A stretch of DNA of 43,451 nt, from NCBI GenBank assembly GCA_947165365.1, contig CAMVAF010000012.1, positions 1 to 43,451 of the forward strand, read 5' to 3'. The notes beneath the pieces were generated by a model. That model saw only the letters and a program-made list of their open reading frames with translations, searched no databases and was not told the origin of the DNA. This document shows, piece by piece, positions 9,210 through 25,147 of this stretch. Within the stretch, counting starts at the first letter, position 1. Each line of letters starts with the position of its first letter. The translations under genes and the position numbers were made by a program. Source of the stretch: an uncultured Clostridia bacterium (lineage in GTDB: Bacteria > Bacillota_I > Bacilli_A > RF39 > UBA660).

Positions 9210-9871
9210 GTTTTTCCTCCCTTAAGAAAACTTTCAATATAAAGACTTGTAACTTCTTTTTTATTTGATGATAATAATGTATGTCTTGCATCTTTAACAT
9301 CAGTTAAATATTTTTTAGTTGCAGGAATTGTATTATAAATTAAATCAGCAGCCTCCATAGGTACTACTTCATCTTTTAAACTACGAAGTATTAAAGTCTC
9401 ACATCTTACATCTTTTAAATACTTTTGACTTTCCTTTACTAATTTAGTAAATTCCATAAAAATACCTGGCGATGTTCTCATTACTTTATCAAACAATACT
9501 TTCCACTTAGAATCACTACCATCACTTTGTTTCGTATTAGCATAAAGAAAAGCAGCATTAATTAAAACAATCTTTTTTATTTCTTTATACTTGCCAGCTA
9601 GATATGTCGTAAGTATTCCTCCCATTGAATGCCCAACAACATATATTTTTTTATAACCAGCCTTAATCAATATCTGAATTTCTTCATCAACTGACTTAAT
9701 AAAATCTTCCTTAGTAGCATTAGAAAACCGATCCTTATTATGTCCCGGTAAAGTTTTAGCATAAACATCATATCTAGGATTTAATTCTAAATAATTAGCT
9801 AAATACTCATTATCATACAAATTACCAGTAAACCCATGAATTATTACAATAGCCGTTCTAAATCTTTTCAT
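9179..9871 (-). CDS. Alpha/beta-hydrolase (carboxylesterase/monoacylglycerol lipase-like)
   Basis: The protein has the serine-hydrolase fold: an oxyanion-hole motif HGFTG (about 12-16), nucleophile elbow GHSMGG (Ser82), and likely acid Asp167 (SLKDEVV) and base His197 (DARHTLL). It resembles small carboxylesterases and monoacylglycerol lipases; the substrate is unknown. I start it at ATG 9871, directly behind AGGAGG, which gives 230 residues. An in-frame ATG 24 bases upstream has no ribosome site and lies in the loop of the T-box sequestering hairpin. It is the first gene of the pheS-pheT transcript, and its 31-base overlap with pheS implies coupled translation. Why a hydrolase leads a Phe T-box operon is unexplained. 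Confidence 0.88.
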   Translation of the reverse strand: MKRFRTAIVIIHGFTGNLYDNEYLANYLELNPRYDVYAKTLPGHNKDRFSNATKEDFIKSVDEEIQILIKAGYKKIYVVGHSMGGILTTYLAGKYKEIKKIVLINAAFLYANTKQSDGSDSKWKVLFDKVMRTSPGIFMEFTKLVKESQKYLKDVRCETLILRSLKDEVVPMEAADLIYNTIPATKKYLTDVKDARHTLLSSNKKEVTSLYIESFLKGGKTWKRNMKKEI

Positions 9872-10486: not shown

Positions 10487-11230
10487 CTATAACTTAATTT
10501 CATCATATAATAGATTAATATTATTCACATCAATTGAAAAATATGTTCCACCATCATGAATCTCTCCCATTCTTCGACCACTCTTATAGTAACCTACATT
10601 AAATGTTACACTAATAATCCCTTGTTCAATAAGTGATATAAAAGTTTCAAACCCCTTATATTGATAAAAATTAATTTTATAATAATAGAAATAACCCTTA
10701 CCATCAATAATTCTCGATGAAGCTCGAACTAAAGCTAAATAACGAAGTTTAAGATTAATTCTTTCTTCTAACCAATCAAATGACCATGAAACACCAATAT
10801 CCATTATTTCTCCCAAATGATCAATAACTAATAAATCAATTTTTTCAGCTTCCCTATTAACAACCAATTTAGCCTTTCTTCCAAAAAGAATATTACTAAA
10901 TTCTTTTCCATTAATACATTTATAAAATGTTTTTTTAGATTTGTCATCCTTACTTGGACAACCCAATTGTTCCAAGATTCTTTTTATCGGGAACAAATAA
11001 TCTCCATCTGGTGTTAATGTAAACAAATGAAGCCCCCACTTAGTATGTGAATTCATTGTTTTAATTTCAATATCATGATAATCCGCTATTGGAAAATAAT
11101 CTTCATCTTTTCCAATTAAGCTTTCAAAAGTATAACCAATTCCAGTAAAGCCTTTCCTCTTTTCTAAAACCCATCCCATTTCTTTAACTTTTTTGAACTT
11201 TTCATAAAGTTCCATAAATTCTGTTTTCAC
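10487..11230 (-). CDS. MvaI/BcnI-family-like restriction endonuclease (MutH/PD-(D/E)XK type)
   Basis: This 247-aa protein carries the MvaI/BcnI/MutH-type core near its N-terminus. The segment GFTGIGYTFESLIG (27-40) supplies Glu36; Asp50 or Asp53 with Glu55-Ile-Lys57 form the D...ExK site; and TLFT-like LHLFTLTP follows. Members cut DNA at specific sites or act as mismatch-repair nicking enzymes. No methyltransferase is seen beside it, so it is either an orphan nuclease or protected by a distant methylase. The start is GTG 11230, chosen because AGGAGG lies six bases upstream. It is separated from the operon upstream by a strong terminator and lies next to the tRNA-Pro remnants, which suggests an accessory origin. 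Confidence 0.75.
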   Translation of the reverse strand: MKTEFMELYEKFKKVKEMGWVLEKRKGFTGIGYTFESLIGKDEDYFPIADYHDIEIKTMNSHTKWGLHLFTLTPDGDYLFPIKRILEQLGCPSKDDKSKKTFYKCINGKEFSNILFGRKAKLVVNREAEKIDLLVIDHLGEIMDIGVSWSFDWLEERINLKLRYLALVRASSRIIDGKGYFYYYKINFYQYKGFETFISLIEQGIISVTFNVGYYKSGRRMGEIHDGGTYFSIDVNNINLLYDEIKL

Positions 11231-13859: not shown

Positions 13860-14891
13860 TTATTTTTCAATATATCCACTGATGCTTTTCGTATACATAT
13901 CATCAGTAATACTTTTATAACGATTTCCCTGATAATCATCAGTAAAACCATTATAAGCTTTATAAACATCACCAGTTTCTGTATCATATACTCTTTCATA
14001 TCCAAGAGTTGCATCACTTTGTTTACCACTTATAATATCATAAGAATTATTACGCTTTTGCCATGAATCCATAATCATATCAGAAATACTATCATATATC
14101 TTTTGATTAGCCTTTATCGTATTAATTAATGTTGTTTCTTGATTATTAAAACCTTTAATAAAATTATCACTAAATTCTATTGTACTAATACAATAATCCA
14201 ATATTTTCTGCCAATTGTTAAAATCACTATCCGGTGTCGTCATCAAAATAATATTGTAAACATTAAGTGGTGAAACATCAACTTTTGAACTAAAAATATT
14301 TTTTATATCCGTATTGATATAATAGCTACCAACAGATTTTACAGTTGCCGTAAATAACCCCTGCATACTTTCGTTACTATCATTTTTAAAAGTAGCTCGT
14401 AAAATATCACCACCAATATTAGTTTTACCAAGATTTTCAATTACATTAAAATCACTAAAATATGGGAAATATTCCGTTTTTAACTCTGTGCTATTGCTTA
14501 ATTTAGCATTTTTATTCCATACTTTATAAAAACTTTCTGTTGTTTGTGGATCTATTGCCGCAAGTTTTGAAAAAATAGCCTTAGGATAATATTTTGCATA
14601 TGTACTTCTTGCTTTTTCACTTTTCAAGAATCCTTCTTGTTTTAATCCAAATAAGAACATATAATCTTTATTACTTGGATTATAAACTTTAAATGAATAA
14701 TGTATATAATCAGTTGGTGCTACATCAACCTTCCACCCTTTTGGTATTTTAAGACTAACTAATCCATTGCTATAATCTTCGTAAGTAACTAAACTAGTTT
14801 CACTCTTAACAATTTTAACTTTCTTTTCACAACCAGTTACTATAAATATTATTGCAATAAATAATATTGTTAGTAATCTTCTCTTTTTCAT
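13860..14891 (-). CDS. Lipoprotein with PsbP/DcrB-like domain
   Basis: A type II signal peptide ends in IVTG-C (Cys21), so the protein is probably lipid-anchored on the outer face of the membrane. I start at ATG 14891, with GGAAGG seven bases upstream, giving 343 residues; an in-frame start eight codons earlier adds residues that would disrupt the signal. The segment YSNGLVSLKIPKGWKVDV and what follows resembles the PsbP/DcrB-type fold found in many small bacterial lipoproteins. The C-terminal part contains SDATLGYERVYDTETGDVYKA-type sequence. No enzymatic motif is seen. It follows the DUF3592-like gene across a hairpin that may reduce read-through. Confidence 0.75.
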   Translation of the reverse strand: MKKRRLLTILFIAIIFIVTGCEKKVKIVKSETSLVTYEDYSNGLVSLKIPKGWKVDVAPTDYIHYSFKVYNPSNKDYMFLFGLKQEGFLKSEKARSTYAKYYPKAIFSKLAAIDPQTTESFYKVWNKNAKLSNSTELKTEYFPYFSDFNVIENLGKTNIGGDILRATFKNDSNESMQGLFTATVKSVGSYYINTDIKNIFSSKVDVSPLNVYNIILMTTPDSDFNNWQKILDYCISTIEFSDNFIKGFNNQETTLINTIKANQKIYDSISDMIMDSWQKRNNSYDIISGKQSDATLGYERVYDTETGDVYKAYNGFTDDYQGNRYKSITDDMYTKSISGYIEK

Positions 14892-14912
14892 AATCAACCT
14901 TCCTAAAATAAT

Positions 14913-14938
14913 CAAAAAATCTACAATATAGTAGATTT
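14913..14938 (-). terminator. Hairpin terminator/attenuator between DUF3592 and lipoprotein genes
   Basis: Stem AAATCTAC/GTAGATTT with a short loop, then TTT, on the minus strand. It overlaps the stop of the upstream gene and precedes the lipoprotein's ribosome site, so it may attenuate rather than fully terminate. Confidence 0.65.
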
Positions 14939-15341
14939 ATTTTTTTAATACTATTACAACGCCATAAGCAAAAAGACCTAATCCTAGTACACCAAAAACA
15001 ATACTTATAATATTAGAAGTACTATCACCTTTAATGATAAATTCATCAGTCTTATTGGGATTATATAAAATATTTATTTTTTCATTAATACGATAAGCTG
15101 GCGTACTAGATCCTGTTGACATTTCTACTTCCACTTTATTTTCTCCAGCTTGATACTCAATAATAGGATAATACATATAACCACTACCATCACTATCAGC
15201 AGTAAAATCTTCACGCATATCAACAACAGTAGCAATAGCATCAACAGTACAGTTTTTTACTAAATTACTATTTTTAAAGTACATAAAAACAGCAACACCA
15301 ATAAAAATAATTCCAACAATTAAACATCCAAATTTTTGCAT
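14937..15341 (-). CDS. DUF3592-like membrane protein
   Basis: The protein has 134 residues with two TM segments (about 5-22 and 111-131) around an exported beta-rich domain. VDAIATVVDMRED, YPIIEYQAGENKVEVEMS and INEKINILYNPNKTDEFII match the DUF3592 pattern. These are widespread two-TM proteins without an established biochemical role. AGGAGG precedes ATG 15341, and an extended -10 promoter lies at 15376-15384. The lipoprotein gene follows 45 bases downstream. Confidence 0.82.
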   Translation of the reverse strand: MQKFGCLIVGIIFIGVAVFMYFKNSNLVKNCTVDAIATVVDMREDFTADSDGSGYMYYPIIEYQAGENKVEVEMSTGSSTPAYRINEKINILYNPNKTDEFIIKGDSTSNIISIVFGVLGLGLFAYGVVIVLKK

Positions 15342-15375
15342 AAACTCCTCCTTTCTATCATTAACTTACAATATA

Positions 15376-15384
15376 ATTATAACA
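15376..15384 (-). promoter_or_regulatory. Extended -10 promoter of the DUF3592/lipoprotein genes
   Basis: TG-T-TATAAT on the minus strand (TATAAT at 15376-15381) with no convincing -35. The same TATGTTATAAT core precedes the TrbL-like gene at 27339. Confidence 0.5.
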
Positions 15385-15414
15385 TAATATAAATACATAT
15401 AATATATTTTTTTT

Positions 15415-15459
15415 ATGATGTCCCCTATAGGAATCAAAACTACATTTAATTCTTAGGAG
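15415..15459 (-). repeat. Direct repeat of the tRNA-Arg(CCT) 3' half (attachment-site-like)
   Basis: This 45-bp segment matches 17336-17380 in the same orientation with only four mismatches. It covers the anticodon-loop side through the T arm and acceptor to the CCA end. It lacks the 5' half, so it is not a tRNA gene. The 229 bases between it and the AbiEii stop (15460-15688) are AT-rich with no gene seen; a weak hairpin at 15664-15684 (ATAATT/AATTAT followed by T) may end the abiE transcript. Confidence 0.85.
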
Positions 15460-15688
15460 ATAGAAAGTACCAAATTTAAAAATCATTTTGTTTTTTAAAA
15501 TACTTGGTTTTATTTATAAAAATCAGATTTTTTTTAATTGTATTTTTTAAAAACTACCCATTTTTTAATAAATTTAATCGCTTTTAGATATTTTCTCGAA
15601 CTTTTCGCGAATAATTTTTCAATAATTCTATCCTAAAATCATGACACCATAATATTAACAAGCAAAAATATAATTATCAATTATTTAA

Positions 15689-16540
15689 CTATACTGCTAC
15701 AATTTCTTTTTCTAAGATATCTATTATTATCTTAATAGCACTTATTGTATCATCAAAGCTCACAATTTTTGTATATTCTAATTTATTTTGATAGTGGGTA
15801 AATACTCTTCTCAATGTATTATTTTCTTCTAATAATCCAATTACTTCCTTAAAATTGTCTATATTAAACTCAGTATTCCTCTTGTTAAAAGTATTTTCTA
15901 TAGCCTTAATTAAATTTTTATTATTGATGTCATTCTTATGATTATTTATTAACATATATAAATCATAAAAATCTTTTGCTCTAGTAGTTGTAATATTTTT
16001 ACTAATAATACTTTCAAATTTTTCGGCAATAATAGTTTCTATAGAATAAGCCATAATATTTATCTTTCTATTTTCAAATATAGAATTGTATTTATATTTT
16101 ATTTCCCTTGGTGTAATAATATCTCCAGTAGTTATTTCAATAAAGAAATTAGTTCTAATTTTATAAAATGTACCTTTAACATTTATTCTAAATCCTCCAT
16201 ATTCATCTTCTAATCTAATATCTTTAATACTAACTATTTCAAATTTAACATTATCAGCTATTTGAATGGATAATATTTCTTCAAAGATATTTCTAATAGA
16301 ATCAATATTTAGTGGTAAACTCTTTAAAGTAGCATCTATATCTTTAGTAGTTCTTAAATCTTCACCAATAATAGAAGATAATAAAACTCCGCCTTTTAAA
16401 ATAATATTATCTCTGTATTTACTTTTTTCTAGCCTCATTAATACATGTTCAAAGAAAAACATTTGATGAAGATGATGAGCTAAATTATTGTTTCCTTTAG
16501 ATTTCTTCTTAATAATATCGTTTAATTTATCCGAATTCAT
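15689..16540 (-). CDS. abiEii: AbiEii-type nucleotidyltransferase toxin
   Basis: The protein (283 aa, usual family size) is the toxin of the AbiE type IV toxin-antitoxin/abortive-infection system, with a DNA-polymerase-beta-like nucleotidyltransferase fold. Visible motifs: LKGGVLL (KGG 49-51), TTKDIDATL (Asp67 and Asp69, metal ligands), AEKFES (172-177) and RAKDFYDLYML (187-197). Related toxins modify tRNA acceptor ends in some systems; the target here is unknown. ATG 16540 follows the abiEi stop directly (TAGATG), with GGAGG lying inside the end of abiEi, so the two are translationally coupled. The pair lies between tRNA-Arg(CCT) and its partial copy. Confidence 0.9.
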   Translation of the reverse strand: MNSDKLNDIIKKKSKGNNNLAHHLHQMFFFEHVLMRLEKSKYRDNIILKGGVLLSSIIGEDLRTTKDIDATLKSLPLNIDSIRNIFEEILSIQIADNVKFEIVSIKDIRLEDEYGGFRINVKGTFYKIRTNFFIEITTGDIITPREIKYKYNSIFENRKINIMAYSIETIIAEKFESIISKNITTTRAKDFYDLYMLINNHKNDINNKNLIKAIENTFNKRNTEFNIDNFKEVIGLLEENNTLRRVFTHYQNKLEYTKIVSFDDTISAIKIIIDILEKEIVAV

Positions 16541-17134
16541 CTATAATAATACCTCCATTAATTCAACAACTTCATCAAGGATATCTAACTTTTTAGCATA
16601 TTTAACAAGTTTTAAAATATCTTTACTTTTACTTCTTGCATATTCTTTTAATGCTTTAGAATAAATTTCCTTATCCATATGATTTTTATCTTTAATAATA
16701 TCACATAATGTTCTTTCTAAGTCATAGCACTTAACAGTTAGTTCATTAATAGTTTTAATATCAATCATTCCAAGTTCAAAAATATTATCTTTAACATATC
16801 TAAGTGATACATTTTCATTATTTAATAAGTTACCACTATAATTATATGGTACAGTGATATCATAAACTAATGGAATCCTATCGGACATATTATGCAAATA
16901 TAAACTAGTAGCATGAGAATAACACATATTCTTACTACTTTTAGATAAAATGTAAAAATTATCAATTGGATATTCAGGTAACTTATAAATACCAATTCCA
17001 ACTCTTTCTATTTTTTTATTACTTACTAAATTACTTAAAAATGTACTATTAATTTCTAAATTTTCAACTTCTCTTGCAGTAATATATCCATTATTTTCTT
17101 TAGCATAATTTAAAATTTTATCATAATTATTCAT
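16541..17134 (-). CDS. abiEi: AbiEi-type antitoxin and transcriptional autorepressor
   Basis: From ATG 17134 the protein has 197 residues: an N-terminal winged helix (1-52; GYITAREV...NLVSNKKIERVGIGIYKL) and the AbiEi C-terminal antitoxin domain. The longer frame starting at TTG 17191 would begin on the -35 box itself, so it is rejected. AbiEi proteins neutralise AbiEii and repress their own promoter through inverted repeats. Here an inverted repeat TTTCCTT/AAGGAAA (17145-17162) sits between the -10 and the start codon, as expected. It is first in the two-gene operon. Confidence 0.9.
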   Translation of the reverse strand: MNNYDKILNYAKENNGYITAREVENLEINSTFLSNLVSNKKIERVGIGIYKLPEYPIDNFYILSKSSKNMCYSHATSLYLHNMSDRIPLVYDITVPYNYSGNLLNNENVSLRYVKDNIFELGMIDIKTINELTVKCYDLERTLCDIIKDKNHMDKEIYSKALKEYARSKSKDILKLVKYAKKLDILDEVVELMEVLL

Positions 17135-17144
17135 ATATATCTTA

Positions 17145-17191
17145 TTTCCTTTTCTAAGGAAAATTATATCATTTATCCTTAAAAATGTCAA
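17145..17191 (-). promoter_or_regulatory. Consensus promoter and operator of abiEi-abiEii
   Basis: A perfect TTGACA (17186-17191), a 17-base spacer and TATAAT (17163-17168) on the minus strand. The inverted repeat TTTCCTT-ttct-AAGGAAA (17145-17162 on the plus strand) covers the expected transcription start and is a probable AbiEi operator. Confidence 0.85.
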
Positions 17192-17287
17192 TTAATCATA
17201 TTGCTACTTTTTTATTATCACTTTAATATAGCATTAATAAACCATTTCATATTGTTTTGTTGCTGTACTTTAAATATACAAATTTAT

Positions 17288-17315
17288 TAAAAAACTGATT
17301 ATTTCTAACCAGTTA
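17288..17315 (-). terminator. Terminator downstream of tRNA-Arg(CCT)
   Basis: Imperfect stem AACTG-g-TT / AA-t-CAGTT followed by a short T-run on the minus strand, 22 bases after the tRNA. Confidence 0.65.
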
Positions 17316-17335
17316 AAAACTCAAAACAAAATTAA

Positions 17336-17380
17336 ATGGTGTCCCCTGTAGGAATCGAACCTACATTTAATTCTTAGGAG
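17336..17380 (-). repeat. Direct repeat within tRNA-Arg(CCT), partner of 15415-15459
   Basis: The 3' half of the intact tRNA is repeated about 1.9 kb downstream (minus direction) with four mismatches in 45 bases. This is the arrangement left when an element integrates into a tRNA 3' end. Confidence 0.85.
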
Positions 17381-17411
17381 GAATCCGTACTATCCATTAT
17401 ACTAAGAGGAC
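17337..17411 (-). tRNA. tRNA-Arg (anticodon CCT)
   Basis: Minus-strand cloverleaf: acceptor GTCCTCT/AGGGGAC, anticodon stem GATTC/GAATT with loop CTCCTAA (anticodon CCT), T arm GTAGG/CCTAC with TTCGATT, and encoded ACCA. Its 3' half is duplicated at 15415-15459. It lies 30 bases after the virD4-like gene, so its promoter is unclear. Confidence 0.96.
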
Positions 17412-17441: not shown

Positions 17442-19631
17442 TTAATCAAAGAAATCATCAAAAAACTCATCATCATCTATTTCTAATCTTTTCTTTTCTA
17501 CATTAACATTATCCTTAAAGTCATCTTTTGATATTTCTTTTTTAATATTAATATTATTTTCTGGAAGATTTGTTTCTTCGTTTATAGTATCAGCATTATT
17601 AATAATATTTTCTAAATTATCATTATTTTCTTTTCTGATATCTTTATTATTTATAATTGCATCAAGATTAATATCTTTATTTTTTTCAACAAGACTCTCT
17701 ATTTTATTATTTTTTTCTTGTTCTTCTTTTTCTAGTTCAGCAATTTTTAAATCAATTTGTTTAACAACTTCATCAATATCAAATGAATCATCTTCCTTCT
17801 TTTTCTGAGGAGTTGGTCTTTCAAAAGGTAAACCACCTCCAAAAGGATTACCTCCCATAAAAGGATTAAAAGGTAAAGATCGATTATCAGAAAAATCTAA
17901 TAAATTATCTTTATTTTTATTAACTTTTTCATCAACAAATTCTTTAACATTAAAAGTTTTTATTTCATGAAGTTCACGAGAAGGAACATCATTAATATTA
18001 ACAGAAGGATAACTTTTACCCCAATCTATTTTATAATTTGGTGTTAATTTTGTTTTAAATGGTGCCAATCTTATTCTTCTTATAATTACCTCAAACTTCT
18101 TTAATTTTTGTAAATCACTTATTGTAATTAATGGAGTTGACACAGTTTTATCATCTTTTTTGGATTTTTTCTCACCACACATTTTACTTATTTCTTCTAA
18201 TGCCTTATATTCCGTACTAATTAAGTATACCATATTTCCACAATTACCTTTAATTGTTTCAGCATTTTGTTCACCATATACTTCATTTAACTGAGCAAAG
18301 TTTTGAATAATTAAAGTAAATCTCATTGCTCTACTTCTTGCTGCAGTAATCATCGTAGTTACATCCTTAAGTGGTGGCATATTTGCAAATTCATCCAAAA
18401 GAAAATTTGTTCTAACTGGAAGTCTACCATTATTTTGATGAGCAACATCAATTAAAGTTTCATATATTTGTTTAACTAAAATTGTAGCCAAAGAATGATA
18501 AGTTTTCTTTTCATCTTGAATAACAATAAAAACTGCTGTTTTACGAAGTCCAATATCTTTAATATCAAAATCACTATGCGATAACATTTCCGATAAATTT
18601 ACTCTTGTAGCAAATAATTTTATTTTCTCTTTAAATACAGCTAAAATACTACCTTTAGTCTCATTTGGTGAAAGAATTGTACTAGAGGCATTGATATAAG
18701 CAGCACCAGCAGGATCTTTGGAATTAAAATATTCCTTAATATAGGTACTACTTCCACGAAATCTCTCCTCACCAACTGTTGTCATTAAACTAATACTATT
18801 AATATTTATTTCTTCTTCTTTAGCATCTTCAAATAAACCTAAAGCTAAACCTGAAAAATATCCAGCAGAAGTTTTCTCCCAAAAAGGATCAGCATTTTTA
18901 TTACTTTCATCATACAAAATATTTAAAGCTAAATCATCTAATAACTCAATCGCTTTATCTTGATTACCACTCGTCCATAATCTATAAGGAAGTGTTAAAG
19001 GATTCCATGCATTTCCCTTACTTGGATCACGAAAGTTTAACAAAACAATATTATATCCCCTTCTTTTTAACATTTCACTTGTTTGTTCATAAATTTCCCC
19101 TTTAGGATCGGTGATAACCATTGATTCATCATGTTTTGAAAGGGACTGTACCATTGGAAAAATAACACATTGTGTTTTACCACTACCTGTTGAACCAATA
19201 ATTAAATTATGATACTCTCCATCATCAACCCACATTGTTTTACCATCATTAATTAAAGGAATTCCTCCAGCAGCAGCCTTAAATTCAGATGTATTAATCG
19301 GTTTAAGTTCTTTTTTCATTGTCTTAACATCACACCAATTACTATAACCATCAAGTTTTTTTTCAGTAGTAAAACCAAACCCTTTTTCCATTTCAAAAAA
19401 ATAACTTTTAGTAGTGGCAAATAAACCAAATAATGCCATTAAATAAATAACAATAGTTGTAGGAAGATTCTCTAACTTTAAAGCAATAAAGAAATTAATT
19501 CCTGCAAATTCTCCCTCATTCGCAAATAAAATCAAATTAGAAACTAATACACAAATTAATACAAATAAAATAAAAGCATAAATACCAAATCTTACCATAT
19601 CATCTTTTTGAAAACGCATCTTTAGTTTCAT
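17442..19631 (-). CDS. VirD4/TraG-type type IV secretion coupling ATPase
   Basis: The 729-aa protein has two N-terminal TM segments (about 12-36 and 56-75), a P-loop ATPase with Walker A GSTGSGKT (146-153) and Walker B-like ITDPKGE (173-179), and TraG/VirD4 motifs further on such as LLDEFANMPPL. The last 170 residues are low-complexity, Asn/Lys/Glu-rich and coiled, ending in an acidic DDDEFFDDFFD. Coupling proteins hand substrates (relaxase-DNA or effector proteins) to the secretion channel at the inner face of the membrane. AGGAGG precedes ATG 19631. It is last in the T4SS-like unit. No relaxase gene is seen, so its substrate is open. Confidence 0.92.
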   Translation of the reverse strand: MKLKMRFQKDDMVRFGIYAFILFVLICVLVSNLILFANEGEFAGINFFIALKLENLPTTIVIYLMALFGLFATTKSYFFEMEKGFGFTTEKKLDGYSNWCDVKTMKKELKPINTSEFKAAAGGIPLINDGKTMWVDDGEYHNLIIGSTGSGKTQCVIFPMVQSLSKHDESMVITDPKGEIYEQTSEMLKRRGYNIVLLNFRDPSKGNAWNPLTLPYRLWTSGNQDKAIELLDDLALNILYDESNKNADPFWEKTSAGYFSGLALGLFEDAKEEEININSISLMTTVGEERFRGSSTYIKEYFNSKDPAGAAYINASSTILSPNETKGSILAVFKEKIKLFATRVNLSEMLSHSDFDIKDIGLRKTAVFIVIQDEKKTYHSLATILVKQIYETLIDVAHQNNGRLPVRTNFLLDEFANMPPLKDVTTMITAARSRAMRFTLIIQNFAQLNEVYGEQNAETIKGNCGNMVYLISTEYKALEEISKMCGEKKSKKDDKTVSTPLITISDLQKLKKFEVIIRRIRLAPFKTKLTPNYKIDWGKSYPSVNINDVPSRELHEIKTFNVKEFVDEKVNKNKDNLLDFSDNRSLPFNPFMGGNPFGGGLPFERPTPQKKKEDDSFDIDEVVKQIDLKIAELEKEEQEKNNKIESLVEKNKDINLDAIINNKDIRKENNDNLENIINNADTINEETNLPENNINIKKEISKDDFKDNVNVEKKRLEIDDDEFFDDFFD

Positions 19632-19639
19632 AAAGCCTC

Positions 19640-20311
19640 CTATATTTTCTTTTTTCTATTTACAAAAAACAAAGTTACCCAAGTTACAATTATTACCAAA
19701 ACAGCGATTATAATATAAAGCATATTCTTTTTATGTGGATTAAATTTTTTCGATAAATCATAATTAATTAGTATCTTGAAATCCTCATCATTCTCCTGAA
19801 AATGATAACTATAAATATTTTTTTGTTCATCTATTAATTCCATATTGGTATCAACAACTTCATAACCTAATTTAACATTTATTAAAGCATTCTCAACATA
19901 AAACCTATCAGGATTATCTTCTTCATTAGGATTAAACCCCACTGTCTCTAATTTTACAATATTACCATCTTTATTATAACTTATTTCATCAAAATAATCA
20001 TTAAAAAACTTTGAATTATTTAAATATTCTTCCATATTTTGATATTTCTTCTTTATTACAATATAAGGATTATCTTCTTCATATAAAGAATATTCATAAT
20101 TATTTTCTTTTAATTCTTCTACATAATGATCAAGATTTTCTTTTAATACATCAACTTTATTAGTTTTATAATAGGCACTATATAATTTACTAGTACCATA
20201 AATAGTAATCTCTTCATCAATAGTTAAATCTTTATTAACTGAAACATTATAATTACAAGTACAACCTGTTAGTAAAAAAAGTATTAATAAAAGGAAAATA
20301 TTTTTTTTCAT
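19640..20311 (-). CDS. Lipoprotein with C-terminal membrane segment, T4SS-associated
   Basis: Starting at ATG 20311 (GGAAAGG six bases upstream) gives 223 residues. The lipobox LLTG-C places the lipidated cysteine at residue 17. An extracellular domain begins CNYNVSVNKDLTIDEEITIYG, resembling the LppM-type beta-domain seen in Firmicutes lipoproteins. It ends with a TM segment (about 197-217) and RKKK. A protein with both lipid and C-terminal TM anchors would have its domain held close to the membrane. It lies eight bases upstream of virD4 and two bases after the peptidase gene. Its exact role is unknown; a channel accessory is inferred from position. Confidence 0.75.
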   Translation of the reverse strand: MKKNIFLLLILFLLTGCTCNYNVSVNKDLTIDEEITIYGTSKLYSAYYKTNKVDVLKENLDHYVEELKENNYEYSLYEEDNPYIVIKKKYQNMEEYLNNSKFFNDYFDEISYNKDGNIVKLETVGFNPNEEDNPDRFYVENALINVKLGYEVVDTNMELIDEQKNIYSYHFQENDEDFKILINYDLSKKFNPHKKNMLYIIIAVLVIIVTWVTLFFVNRKKKI

Positions 20312-20313
20312 AA

Positions 20314-22386
20314 TTAACCTTTCCAAATAATATAGAAAGCAAAAGCTTCTTTCGCAATCATATCATTTAAACTATACCAACCATTACCCGTCTTTCTTTT
20401 TTTATTAGCTTTATTTGATTTATTATAAGGATCATATACATAAACCTTTTTATCACTTGGATCTACTCCCCCTAAAACCATATAGTGTCCACCACTTGTA
20501 AAATGTCCTGGTCCCATATGAGCAATAATAAGGTCACCTTTTGCTAAATGAGATAATACAAGATTCAAGTCACTTGCTTTACTTTTACCAACTTTTAAGT
20601 ATTTATATCCCATTGATTTAGCTTCTTTTTTAAAGAATCCCACACTAGTTCCTGAAATACCTTTTCCACAGTACCCCCAGTTATAAGCCCTATTCATTTC
20701 ATATACTGGATCATATTTATTACTATTTTGATAAGTAGATACAATGATTGCCATAGCAGTAGTACCACATCCACTTGATTTGATTGTAGCATTACTTCTT
20801 CCACAAAATTTAACATTACCATAATCATTTTGATCATAGAAAATAGCTTTGGTTAATACTTTATTATTTCCATAACTTGCTCCATCATCATAAGTATTTT
20901 CTAATAAATTCTTCACTTGATAATTAGGATATGCTGTAGTTAATATAGTTTTATAATCACCATTTGTTGATAAATTATTATTTAAATATGCAATATTTCC
21001 ACTTTCATTTAATAATACATTTCCATAAACTTCATTAATACTATTTTTGATAGTACTTTTTTCCGATTCCGTAATCTTACCTTTACCATTACAATTAGAA
21101 TTAATATCACAATAATCATTACCATTAATAGATAATTTCAAATTATTTTTAGATAAATCACCATTATAAATAGTATTATTTGTATAAACAACAGTATATG
21201 CTTTTACAACTTCTGCATTATTTAATTCTTTTTTATCTAATTTATTATATATAACTCCAGTTAAATAATCTTTGGCATTAATATCTAATCCATTATAATT
21301 AACTTTTAATTTAGAAGAAATTACTATATCTGGTGAATAGTCATTTTCAATATTAATGTTTTCTGCAAGCTCAAAAATAACATTTAATATATTTTCCATA
21401 CTATCTTCTTTTAATAATTCACTATAATAATTTTTAAAATCTTCACTATTTAACAAATTGTTATAAAAATCTCCTCCTACAGAATAATCAACATCACATG
21501 ATTCTCCAGCCATTAATTCATAAACAGGATCCATCATCTGAGACATTTTAGCATAATTAACATGAACTTCCTCTGGAGAAAAATCTTTAGTAAAATCTAC
21601 CTGATAATATAAATATATTAAAGCAGCATGAACATAATTATTATTTAAATTAATAATACAATTGCTAATTTTCTTTTTTTTGCATTCTTCTTCACATTTT
21701 TTGATATAGGAACCTTTAACTGATTCCAATTTACTATAATATGCCAATTCATTAGTTTTATTGGATGAATCATCTACATTAACTAAATAATAATCTTTAT
21801 TACCAGTATTTTCATATTCAAAAACAGAAAGTAGTGGTTTAAAAAAATTACTTGGAATAATAATAACAACAATTAGTATTAAAATTATAGGAATAAATAA
21901 TAATAAAGGAATAAACATTGATGAAATTGATACTAATAATCTTATAAGTCTTTTTCTTGCAATTACTTCATCAGCAGTAGTATCTTCATCATCAATATTT
22001 TCTTCATCAACTGTATCAGATGATGTTTCATTACTACTACCTCCTCTTCTAAGAAGTCTATTAAGTCTTCCACTTTTACTATTCTTTACATTAAGAAGTT
22101 TTTGTTTTGCAATATCAGGATTTTTGGAAATCTTACTCCCCAATGTACTTCCATTAACAGCATTTTTAGTTACCCCACCAGTTGGTTTATTTAAAGGTGT
22201 TTTTGATGTGATATTATTAAGTTTATTACTAGCGACATCGTCTATTCTTTTAGTAGTATTACTGCCAGTAGAAGCATTTCTAATCTTTTCATAATTTCCA
22301 CCAGTTGCTAAATTATGACCACCTCTTACCGCAGTCTCTTGAAGTTTTTTGGCTGCTATATCTTGTTGCCCTTTCCTATCATCCAT
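20314..22386 (-). CDS. Membrane-anchored C39-like cysteine peptidase of the T4SS-like locus
   Basis: From ATG 22386 (GGAGGTG seven bases upstream) the protein has 690 residues. The N-terminal 150 residues are Lys/Asn/Ser/Thr-rich and cytoplasmic; a TM segment (about 150-185) follows, then an extracellular region of unknown fold. The C-terminal C39-family-like papain-type domain has SSGCGTTAM (Cys about 540), GGHYMVL (His about 634) and YDPYN (Asp about 652). In Gram-positive T4SSs the VirB1-like wall-opening role is played by membrane-anchored peptidoglycan hydrolases; this domain may instead cleave peptides. It lies between virB4-like and lipoprotein genes. Confidence 0.82.
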   Translation of the reverse strand: MDDRKGQQDIAAKKLQETAVRGGHNLATGGNYEKIRNASTGSNTTKRIDDVASNKLNNITSKTPLNKPTGGVTKNAVNGSTLGSKISKNPDIAKQKLLNVKNSKSGRLNRLLRRGGSSNETSSDTVDEENIDDEDTTADEVIARKRLIRLLVSISSMFIPLLLFIPIILILIVVIIIPSNFFKPLLSVFEYENTGNKDYYLVNVDDSSNKTNELAYYSKLESVKGSYIKKCEEECKKKKISNCIINLNNNYVHAALIYLYYQVDFTKDFSPEEVHVNYAKMSQMMDPVYELMAGESCDVDYSVGGDFYNNLLNSEDFKNYYSELLKEDSMENILNVIFELAENINIENDYSPDIVISSKLKVNYNGLDINAKDYLTGVIYNKLDKKELNNAEVVKAYTVVYTNNTIYNGDLSKNNLKLSINGNDYCDINSNCNGKGKITESEKSTIKNSINEVYGNVLLNESGNIAYLNNNLSTNGDYKTILTTAYPNYQVKNLLENTYDDGASYGNNKVLTKAIFYDQNDYGNVKFCGRSNATIKSSGCGTTAMAIIVSTYQNSNKYDPVYEMNRAYNWGYCGKGISGTSVGFFKKEAKSMGYKYLKVGKSKASDLNLVLSHLAKGDLIIAHMGPGHFTSGGHYMVLGGVDPSDKKVYVYDPYNKSNKANKKRKTGNGWYSLNDMIAKEAFAFYIIWKG

Positions 22387-22408
22387 CAAATTCACCTCCA
22401 TTCTAAAG

Positions 22409-22429
22409 AAAGACCTTATAAAGGTCTTT
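22409..22429 (-). terminator. Intercistronic hairpin after virB4
   Basis: Perfect 9-bp stem AAAGACCTT/AAGGTCTTT with a three-base loop and a short CTTT tail, between the virB4 stop and the peptidase ribosome site. It is probably an attenuator or RNA-processing site, since the downstream genes have no obvious promoter of their own. Confidence 0.5.
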
Positions 22430-22435
22430 TATTTT

Positions 22436-24223
22436 TTATAATCCTCCAGCAGAACCAAAACTATCTAATTCATCTTGGGTTACTATAACATCAATTTGCA
22501 TTCTTTTATTTCCACAAACAAATAATGCTTGACCTTGTGTATATCTTTTTATACTATCAATTTCATTATCATTTAAATCAACTAACTTAGCTAAATCCTC
22601 AACAGATTGTTTATTAAGTTGCATAATCAAATAATAAGCAGCATTTCCAAATATTGCTTTTCCTTGTGTTATTACCGAAGGATTAGAAAAGTCACTAGGT
22701 TGTTGTGTAATGATAATAGTACCCGTATTATATTTTCTAGCACGTCTTTGTACTTGAGCTAAGAAATCAGCTCCTAAAACATTATTACCAGATAAAAGTA
22801 CATGAGCTTCATCTACCATTAAAATAGTATCACGTCTTCTATCTAAACATAATCCCCATGCATATTTTAAAACATTAAAGAATAAAGCATTCTTAATATT
22901 TTCATCAGAATTCATCAATTCCTTAATATTAAATACTATAAAATCACTGGTACTTGGAATTGAAGTATGTCCATCAAAATAATATTTAAGTTCACGAACA
23001 AATGGTCTAACCTTAAGTTCAAGACGTTCTAATACATCACGTTCATGTGTTTTTTCTGTAGTTGCGGTAAGTCTTCCCCTAACAGTTGCATAAACATCAC
23101 TAAATGTTGGAAAATCAGCACTTGTTTTACTACTAAAATCACTTTCAAAATTAATTCCAAATCGATGATAAGTATCTTGAACTATCTCACTAAATAATGT
23201 TAAAACATCTTCTTCAATATCAGGATAATAATATCTCATAAAAGCTTTTAAAAATTGTAGTGTCCTTGTAAGAACTGTATATCCGATACCATTTTTAATA
23301 TCTTCTTCATCAGCGTCCATAACAATTTCTAGTGGGTTAATAAGTCCATAACTACCACCTTTACCAAGGTCAATAGAATCTCCACCATATAACTCACACA
23401 TATTTAAAAGTTCATTTTCAGGGTCTATCGCCACAATTTGACAATTATTTCTAATATGACCACGTAGCATTAATTTAGCAGCCGTACTTTTACCACTACC
23501 AGTACTACCAAGAATAACAAGATTAGCATTGTTACGATTATTTTCTTTTCTTATTTTATATAAAAATTGATTAAACAATACAACTCCACCAGAAAAATCA
23601 ACACCAATTAAATTAGCCATTCCCGGATCTTTAACTGAATCAAAGACAAATGGATACATTCCAGCAATAGTTGGACTAGGTATTGGTGTACCAATTCTAT
23701 CTTCTAGTTTTGGTTTAGGAAATATCGGAAGCATTGATTTTAAAAGATTTTCCTGTTCAAACCTAAGTGAAACGGCTCTTAAATCCATTGAATCCAGATA
23801 ATTTTTAACATTAGCTTTTCTATTTTCCAATTCTTCCTTCGTATTACCAGTAACCATAACATGTAACTGAAAATCAAAAATCAAATCTTGATTAGCAGCA
23901 ATTGATTGAATAAATCCTTCAAGTGATTCATAATCTTGTCTAAATCTTTCTTGCATCGTTTTATCTTTTTCTTTTTCATAACGATTACGATAATCTGATA
24001 ATTGTTTATTAATCATTTTTTGAAGAACAGAAAAAGGTACTGGAATATGTTTAATGACAACCTTTATTCCAGACATATTAGTAAGTCCAGAAAGATAACC
24101 AGGTGTTATAAATTTTGGATAAGAAACAACTGTTAAAATGGTAGCATATTTATCACTAATAACAAAATCACTAGGATTAAATTGTAGCCCTTTAGGAGCT
24201 ATCTCTGATGCAAATAAACTCAT
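22436..24223 (-). CDS. VirB4-type T4SS ATPase
   Basis: The 595-aa protein powers assembly and transport in type IV secretion channels. The first 200 residues match the CagE/TrbE/VirB4 lead-in region. Walker A is GSTGSGKST (239-247), followed by the IDPENELL segment, and the second ATPase motif is MVDEAHVLL with a downstream QxxxDF-like region (TIIITQQPSDF). Its first four bases overlap the stop of the preceding gene (ATGA), implying translational coupling. It is shorter than single-chain Gram-positive VirB4s of about 800 residues; the missing N-terminal part appears to be the separate 210-aa protein. Confidence 0.93.
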   Translation of the reverse strand: MSLFASEIAPKGLQFNPSDFVISDKYATILTVVSYPKFITPGYLSGLTNMSGIKVVIKHIPVPFSVLQKMINKQLSDYRNRYEKEKDKTMQERFRQDYESLEGFIQSIAANQDLIFDFQLHVMVTGNTKEELENRKANVKNYLDSMDLRAVSLRFEQENLLKSMLPIFPKPKLEDRIGTPIPSPTIAGMYPFVFDSVKDPGMANLIGVDFSGGVVLFNQFLYKIRKENNRNNANLVILGSTGSGKSTAAKLMLRGHIRNNCQIVAIDPENELLNMCELYGGDSIDLGKGGSYGLINPLEIVMDADEEDIKNGIGYTVLTRTLQFLKAFMRYYYPDIEEDVLTLFSEIVQDTYHRFGINFESDFSSKTSADFPTFSDVYATVRGRLTATTEKTHERDVLERLELKVRPFVRELKYYFDGHTSIPSTSDFIVFNIKELMNSDENIKNALFFNVLKYAWGLCLDRRRDTILMVDEAHVLLSGNNVLGADFLAQVQRRARKYNTGTIIITQQPSDFSNPSVITQGKAIFGNAAYYLIMQLNKQSVEDLAKLVDLNDNEIDSIKRYTQGQALFVCGNKRMQIDVIVTQDELDSFGSAGGL

Positions 24224-24852
24224 CTCATCACCACCGTTCCAAAGTTTGTTCTAACTCCACCATTTAAGAAATTATCTAGAATTATTCGAAGTTCATCATC
24301 GGTTGTTTGACTAGCAAGCAAAGAACAAGATGCAAAACCATTAATCATTAATCTTAATTTATCATCAAGTCGCTCACGATTACTTTCTTTAAACAATACA
24401 TAATATTCGGTATCAACAACTTGATTATTAATAAACATATTAGCTTTATCAATATCCTGTAATACCATCTTTCTTCTTGCAGGAGTAAGATTAGAATTAA
24501 GCATTAATTGTAATCCTGAAAGATACACCGAAATATCAACTGGTCGATCAGCAGCAATTAACCAAAATTCAAAATTAAAAGTATTATAACAATTTCTAAG
24601 AGCATTTAAAATATTATCTTGTTGTATATCTTCCATTATAAAGATATTTCTAGGTTGTACTTTAACACCTGTTACCATTTCTCTATTTGGTAAAGTAATA
24701 ATTCCATCTCTAATTGATCTAATTCTAACCCAATTTTCCGTATAGTTACCCTTTCTAGGTTGTTGCTTTACCTGAGCAACAGGTTTGGTATTAGGTCTTA
24801 CATTACCATTAATAGGTCTATTATTGTTCACGGGTTGATTCATATACAGCAC
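24220..24852 (-). CDS. TraC-like / detached VirB4 N-terminal domain protein
   Basis: The protein has 210 residues: a disordered Asn/Pro-rich N-terminus (1-35) and a folded domain (38-210) beginning WVRIRSIRDGIITL, with VDISVYLSGL and RRKMVLQDI further on. It lies between PrgI and VirB4 genes, as TraC-like proteins do in some Gram-positive-type T4SS loci. It resembles the extreme N-terminal portion of longer VirB4 proteins. I use GTG 24852 because GGAGAGG lies five bases upstream; ATG 24843 is the alternative. The gene overlaps prgI by 32 bases and virB4 by four. Confidence 0.75.
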   Translation of the reverse strand: MLYMNQPVNNNRPINGNVRPNTKPVAQVKQQPRKGNYTENWVRIRSIRDGIITLPNREMVTGVKVQPRNIFIMEDIQQDNILNALRNCYNTFNFEFWLIAADRPVDISVYLSGLQLMLNSNLTPARRKMVLQDIDKANMFINNQVVDTEYYVLFKESNRERLDDKLRLMINGFASCSLLASQTTDDELRIILDNFLNGGVRTNFGTVVMR

Positions 24853-25147
24853 ACCATCCTCTCCATCTATAATTCTTATTATTACTGTAAAAATGTATCA
24901 TCTCTTGTATTGCAACCAAAACATTATGATAATTGGGAACTGGATAAACAAGAGCGAAACACAAAAGTCCAGGAACCACCGCCAATAAGTTTACCCAATT
25001 CGGTAAATCCATATTACTAAAAACTATCAATAAGATAAATGTTATACTTGCCCCTGTTATTGCGATACCCAAATCCACTGGACGAAAGATACTAAGTATC
25101 AATTGTCCTTTCTTGGTATTCGCTGGTATCATAAATCGATTATCCAC
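24821..25147 (-). CDS. PrgI-family membrane protein (VirB3-like)
   Basis: The protein has 108 residues. A short N-terminus with MIPANTKKGQ is followed by FRPVDLGI, two TM segments (about 26-45 and 50-70) and the tail YRWRGW. This pattern matches the PrgI family, small inner-membrane subunits equivalent to VirB3 that sit next to the VirB4 ATPase. It starts with GTG 25147 behind AGGAG. It lies 20 bases after the TrbL-like gene and overlaps the TraC-like gene. Confidence 0.88.
   Translation of the reverse strand: MDNRFMIPANTKKGQLILSIFRPVDLGIAITGASITFILLIVFSNMDLPNWVNLLAVVPGLLCFALVYPVPNYHNVLVAIQEMIHFYSNNKNYRWRGWCAVYESTREQ

Follow-up and report, generated by a model that had tools for sequence, protein, structure and literature searches.

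An AbiE toxin-antitoxin pair between the attachment ends of a probable CIME at tRNA-Arg(CCT)

In the window analysed here, which is the whole 43,451-nucleotide stretch of DNA, an AbiE pair is bracketed by an intact tRNA-Arg(CCT) gene and a direct repeat of its 3' half, and this observation was confirmed. It is very probable that the island is a CIME (cis-mobilizable element), in which both att ends of an integrative element targeting tRNA-Arg(CCT) have been kept and the AbiE operon has replaced all of the mobility genes. The finding is genuine and has good support, and as to its kind it is ordinary: a small and well-resolved case of a stripped-down CIME. It illustrates how far an integrative element can be reduced while its addiction/defence module survives, and it offers two clean and testable ends whose probable cognate integrase is known from a congener (G003). 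The source genome (G000) is a MAG-like draft of 51 contigs that is 82% complete.

Layout of the island and its AbiE cargo

The features of the island are collected in Table 1. The two copies of the direct repeat are 45 nt long, have the same orientation and agree at 41 of 45 positions (91%). In the tRNA sense, the repeat extends from CTCCTAA, the first letter of which opens the anticodon loop, to CCA. Cores of tyrosine integrases in tRNA genes usually span this stretch, from the anticodon loop to CCA. All four mismatches (15439, 15436, 15427 and 15418) are changes to T in the tRNA sense and lie in the distal copy, and the first 20 bases, including the anticodon loop, are identical in both cores. 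The intact tRNA half of the window shows no difference from the tRNA sequence of G004, a genome of the same genus. The initial annotation had described a same-orientation repeat of this length with four mismatches, reaching from the anticodon side to CCA, which was borne out by the alignment and by the tRNA call of ARAGORN and Rfam. The genome search that it proposed was also carried out, and no third copy of the 45-bp repeat was found in the G000 genome.

Table 1. Features of the island, listed from the tRNA gene to the chromosomal flank behind the distal core
Feature	Position in window	Strand	Basis
Intact tRNA-Arg(CCT), integration target	17337-17411	-	ARAGORN and Rfam (17337-17411 / 17340-17411)
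tRNA-side attachment core, the tRNA 3' half	17336-17380	-	Repeat alignment; identical to G004 tRNA
tRNA-side attachment arm	17283-17335	-	Match to G001 and G003 element ends
Spacer of ~90 bp, arm to AbiE promoter	17192-17282		No match to element arms or AbiE loci
AbiE promoter and overlapping inverted repeat TTCCTTAGAAAAGGAA (candidate AbiEi operator)	17145-17191	-	Consensus match, 13 AbiE loci
abiEi, 198-aa antitoxin/repressor	16541-17137	-	PF13338, PADLOC AbiEi
abiEii, 283-aa nucleotidyltransferase toxin	15689-16540	-	PF08843, PADLOC AbiEii
Spacer of ~53 bp without integrase remnant	15636-15688		G003 element homology starts only at TAGGATAG
Putative integrase-side attachment arm	15460-15635	-	G003:C36 arm alignment, arm-to-core spacing
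Distal attachment core, decayed copy of tRNA 3' half (CTCCTAAG...CCAT)	15415-15459	-	Repeat alignment
Former tRNA 3' flank (chromosomal), now adjoining distal copy	15373-15414		G004 comparison

The coding content of the ~1.9 kb between the repeats is abiEi and abiEii, both on the minus strand. Besides this pair, no ORF of at least 80 aa was found between the repeats, and there was no integrase, xis, repA, conjugation or mobilization gene. The earlier remark that little more than abiEi-abiEii lies between the copies, with no integrase inside, was correct with regard to the genes, but it left out the noncoding arms of ~175 bp and 53 bp that separate the AbiE operon from the two repeats. The alignments exclude a chance origin of the repeat, because it is a tRNA half and its inner flanks match the ends of integrase elements elsewhere.

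AbiEii matched PF08843 (E=4.4e-37) and the PADLOC AbiEii model (292 bits, 6e-88), and AbiEi matched PF13338 (E=6e-6) and PADLOC AbiEi (202 bits, 1.6e-60). The AbiEii translation has all four DUF1814 motifs (KGGx15DID; EKFESII, the lysine motif; KDFYD), and in the characterised system motifs I-IV are needed for toxicity (PMC3985639). Like the AbiE type IV toxin-antitoxin systems (PMC3985639), the pair is a bicistronic antitoxin-toxin operon with nucleotidyltransferase motifs I-IV in the toxin, an adjacent AbiEi, and a promoter overlapped by inverted repeats. Unlike in the characterised AbiE, the nearest solved chain of AbiEii, 9hlo_B (E=2e-47), was deposited as AbiGII, and the toxin activity is a predicted one. 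The dN/dS values against the homologue of G051 were ~0.08 for AbiEii and ~0.16 for AbiEi. Judged from its sequence, the AbiE pair is complete and under purifying selection.

The promoter at 17163-17191 (TTGACA-17-TATAAT) agrees with the consensus at 12 of 12 bases, and the inverted repeats overlapping it are kept in 13 AbiE loci. The homology among these loci ends just upstream of the -35 box, so a border of the cassette is placed there, and the cassette edges in the window agree with those of AbiE loci elsewhere. AbiEii relatives are present in 90 of the 291 family genomes. The closest AbiE pairs (76-88% identical) are located away from tRNA-Arg(CCT), which indicates that the cassette was joined to the arms at some point and was not co-inherited with them across the family. 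Delivery of AbiE together with the arms as a unit in the relatives was rejected on this ground, and two pairs nearer to the tRNA have no repeat. These more distant AbiE pairs (L150 1059-3347 in CANRCV010000030.1 and L213 8415-10232 in G081:C20) lie within ~0.4-0.8 kb of tRNA-Arg(CCT) and have no core repeat; one is arranged in the same order and the other faces the tRNA, and they are possibly older or different insertions. Further AbiEii homologues of G000 were observed at C2:39080-39898 (38%) and C39:7402-8016 (30%).

Attachment arms and parent elements

The 176-bp segment inside the distal core was aligned with a contig of the congener (G003:C36), giving 174 matches and 5 mismatches (97%, 174/179 aligned) together with gaps, mostly of a single base. 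The global score was 265, and the shuffle maximum was -7. In G003, this arm lies behind the genes for a tyrosine integrase of 588 aa (PF00589 3.5e-22; SAM-like domains at the N terminus) and a 109-aa HTH_17 excisionase-like protein, and the same core comes after it. The motif TAGGATAG is found in the window at 15628-15635. Its distance to the CTCCTAA core is 176 bp in the window and 179-181 bp in five integrase-linked elements (G003:C36, G150:C34, G297:C22, G085:C2 and G064:C53), all of which have two TCGCGA/TCGCAA repeats after TAGGATAG. The corresponding direct repeats of the window arm are TTCGCGAA (15604-15611) and TTCGAGAA (15593-15600), the second being mutated from TTCGCGA to TTCGAGA. 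Because of its position, conservation and spacing, we assign this segment as the putative integrase-side arm of a tRNA-Arg(CCT)-specific integration site. The five elements and the island have in common the target, the start of the core, the TAGGATAG/TCGCGA arm and a near-equal spacing. Unlike the island, the elements carry an integrase gene or fragment beside the arm, some with an excisionase-like gene, and the repA-like gene is found on separate contigs. Their integrases are 36-59% identical to that of G003, some of them being fragments. The arm pattern occurred nine times in 8 of the 291 family genomes, each time adjoining tRNA-Arg(CCT) or its 3' half, and a reversed control pattern occurred in none of the 291. 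In this family of uncultured gut Bacilli, tRNA-Arg(CCT) is used recurrently for integration, and the arms have a fixed architecture.

The tRNA-side arm is identical to a sequence of G001 at 45 of 47 bases and is similar to the G003 element ends; the alignment score was 84, compared with a maximum of 33 in 300 shuffles. It contains a terminator-like hairpin, AACTGGTTAGAAATAATCAGTT, at 17293-17314. In both G001 and G003, the matching sequence lies beyond tRNA-Arg(CCT) and a repA-like gene (HTH_36) directly follows it; this gene is missing in the window. Junctions of tRNA and repA of a similar kind were found in G150, G255, G297 and G064, and a decayed one in G005.

The arms trace to an integrase-bearing element. 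The parent was probably an ICE (integrative and conjugative element) rather than an IME or another integrative island; this label is given as probable because the parent contigs break at repeats, ahead of any conjugation gene, and conjugation genes were not seen. The integrase contig of G150 encodes a 2,100-aa SNF2-helicase protein, and SNF2-helicase proteins of such a sort occur in ICEs. A phage origin of the parent was rejected, as IMG/VR held no match to the integrase, the arm or AbiE.

At three other loci (L031 4237-4538 in G003:C57, L264/L224 in G255:C66 and L271/L219 in G150:C93), the host tRNA-Arg(CCT) is interrupted at the anticodon loop; behind its 5' half come, in this order, an element arm, a complete and different tRNA-Arg(CCT) and a repA-like gene. 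The element in these three genomes appears to replace the host tRNA gene with its own carried copy. A group I intron was considered for the split tRNA match in G003:C57 and was ruled out, since behind the split half there is another, complete tRNA, and the insert includes the element arm. In G003:C36 (L036 2278-3322), one uninterrupted stretch holds the integrase arm, the core and the left arm with its shortened repA-like gene; it represents either two elements in tandem (accretion) or an assembled junction of a circular form.

Empty site, age of the integration and rival explanations

The corresponding site of G004 (G004:C73 / L035) has a single intact tRNA-Arg(CCT) and no AbiE, and it represents an empty site. 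The order of the neighbours, named from their translations, is common to G004 and the window: pheT, pheS, tRNA-Arg(ACG), tRNA-Pro, an MvaI/BcnI-type nuclease gene, a lipoprotein gene, tRNA-Arg(CCT) and virD4. The lipoprotein gene of G004, a homologue of window 13860-14915, starts ~55 bp past the single tRNA. When the tRNA 5' side of the window was joined to the distal copy and its flank, the G004 site was reproduced. The distal core with its flank aligned to G004 9761-9844 at 79% over 87 bp (E 4e-15). The 42-bp outer flank alone, which is short and AT-rich, was not significant, as 13 of 500 shuffles scored as well, and it was dropped as stand-alone proof; the claim of an empty site therefore rests on gene synteny and the core. 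The initial annotation had assumed integration by a tyrosine recombinase into the tRNA 3' end and advised looking for empty tRNA-Arg(CCT) sites in relatives. The G004 site answers this, and both inner ends of the island match integrase elements of the same genus. Neither of the outcomes that it named as contrary, a lack of empty sites or a tRNA duplication older than AbiE, was encountered, as G004 is empty and the distal copy is half a tRNA with element arms.

A DUF3592 gene at 14937-15341, outside the repeat and next to the distal copy, is absent at the G004 site. It follows that two events separate the sites, with a second gain or loss beside the island. The nuclease gene near tRNA-Pro that is common to G004 lies at 10487-11230 and belongs to the MvaI/BcnI family of type II restriction nucleases (PF15515 1.4e-38); among the proteins scanned, none next to it was identified as a methyltransferase. 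A T4SS-like locus at 17442-25147, immediately upstream of the tRNA and outside the repeats, comprises genes for a VirD4 coupling protein and a VirB4/TraG-like ATPase and further genes. As virD4 is also present in G003 and G004, this locus does not belong to the island.

Between the distal core and the tRNA, 4 of 45 sites differ (95% interval 2-21%), and between the integrase-side arm and the G003 arm 5 of 179 (1-6%); the flanking genes of G000 and G004 are separated by ~0.75-1.0 synonymous changes per site. The low divergence of core and arm compared with the flanking genes suggests that the integration probably postdates the split from G004. The nucleotide identity of virD4 between the hosts of the two arms is 77%, and the window arm differs from that of G003 by ~3%. 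Since the arm is much closer to that of G003 than the hosts are to each other, it was probably acquired by transfer. This identity could also stem from constraint on the arm, but the homologous arm is down to 73% identity in G150, which runs counter to it.

We presume that an element of the parent family, or a derivative of it that was reduced beforehand, entered the tRNA-Arg(CCT) core at its anticodon-loop part. The 3' half that was brought in would have restored an intact tRNA, and the original half that it displaced would have become the distal copy, freed of selection and decaying. The element would have been cut down to its arms and AbiE, before or after arrival. The AbiE pair could have persisted because its loss frees the toxin (addiction), because phage is blocked, or both; elsewhere, AbiE stabilises mobile elements and resists phage (PMC3985639). 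As the island is without its own integrase, it could move at present only with a related integrase acting in trans or after accretion of a related element beside it. The integrase-side arm and the distal core are in early decay.

The initial annotation had proposed a cargo-only island, either mobilised in trans or left over from a larger element. The arms uphold the derivation from a larger element, and each of the two branches has part of the evidence on its side. A non-autonomous mini-element that moves as a unit through the trans integrase of a co-resident or visiting relative would be a sub-case of the CIME reading. The retention of both arms fits such an element, and so do the absence of int and repA coding traces, the breakpoints at the outer edges of the conserved arms, the high identity of the arm to that of G003 despite the divergence of the hosts, and the identical first 20 bp of both cores. 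It is opposed by the mutated arm repeat, the spacing that is 3-5 bp short and the decayed distal core, and no second copy of the AbiE-arm element was found among the 291 family genomes. In addition, no integrase related to that of G003 was found in the 82%-complete genome of G000, where six PF00589 matches were obtained, two of them 297-aa Xer-like proteins, and the G003 integrase matched nothing there except, weakly, a Xer-like protein of 297 aa. The PF00589 loci of G000 were also considered as a home of the cognate integrase and rejected; they carry no tRNA gene, and the few CTCCTAA matches there are not tRNA-Arg(CCT) 3' halves, because the genome is without a third repeat copy. The mutated repeat, the short arm and the lack of a cognate integrase in the assembly favour a fossil or remnant, and we regard movement as a unit as possible but doubtful. 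That AbiE and the two arms form a minimal non-autonomous element, whose sole selfish trait is the toxin-antitoxin pair and which spreads between hosts with an integrase supplied in trans by tRNA-Arg(CCT) elements, is considered unlikely.

AbiE might never have been the cargo of an integrase element and might have entered an emptied scar (micro-CIME) by homologous or illegitimate recombination. A cargo-less scar with tRNA, arm and decayed core does exist in G269, and AbiE cassettes with the same boundaries lie at many unrelated loci, but close relatives showed no scar of this lineage and the G004 site is clean, so that we judge such an entry rather improbable. An old tRNA gene duplication followed by the arrival of AbiE between the copies has a parallel in G238 and others, where a few kb separate two similar tRNA-Arg genes. 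It is highly improbable here, given that the distal copy is a 3' half only and starts exactly at the anticodon loop, that the flank of the G004 tRNA resembles the outer flank of the distal copy and not that of the intact tRNA, and that both copies are flanked on the inside by arms of integrase elements. Contigs of relatives often end at tRNA-Arg(CCT) (G001, G003 and G150), which could point to unrelated ends joined in the draft genome; with an imperfect repeat of 45 bp and both flanks syntenic with G004, an assembly artefact of this kind is hardly conceivable.

Comparison with known CIMEs

CIMEs have lost the recombination and transfer genes and kept the att sites, with sizes of 1.2-13 kb for classical CIMEs and 130-220 bp for micro-CIMEs, and accretion with an ICE or IME can make them mobile (PMC5704250, PMC7563491). 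Classical CIMEs of 1.2-13 kb are known in Streptococcus salivarius (PMC7563491), and a passage of PMC7563491 cites CIMEs at tRNA-Lys(CTT) in S. agalactiae. By the published definition, the island is a classical CIME of ~2 kb, likely of ICE/IME descent. It has attL and attR flanks in the form of the 45-bp core repeat and two arms matched to integrase elements, and genes for integration/excision and for conjugation/mobilization are absent between them. The empty site in a relative is in line with a tRNA-targeted element of a tyrosine integrase, and an integrase of its own, as in an autonomous genomic island or IME, is lacking.

Like the classical CIMEs, the island has kept attL and attR, has lost the mobility genes, carries few cargo genes and occupies a 3' end that is also used by related integrative elements. 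It differs from them in its host, a member of an uncultured gut Bacilli lineage, judged by the named hosts of the closest AbiE relatives, and in standing alone with no tandem ICE/IME; its cargo is the toxin-antitoxin pair only, and the transfer module of the parent was not seen. Lone CIMEs are usually missed because surveys search for integrases or tandems (PMC7563491). In micro-CIMEs, as in the island, the att sites are the sole mobility determinants, but micro-CIMEs hold no gene within their 130-220 bp, whereas the island has the AbiE pair. The cargo-less scar of G269 (L123 4553-4900 in G269:C58), which lies by tRNA-Arg(CCT) and has the arm motif, a decayed core and a terminator-like hairpin similar to that of the left arm, resembles a micro-CIME.
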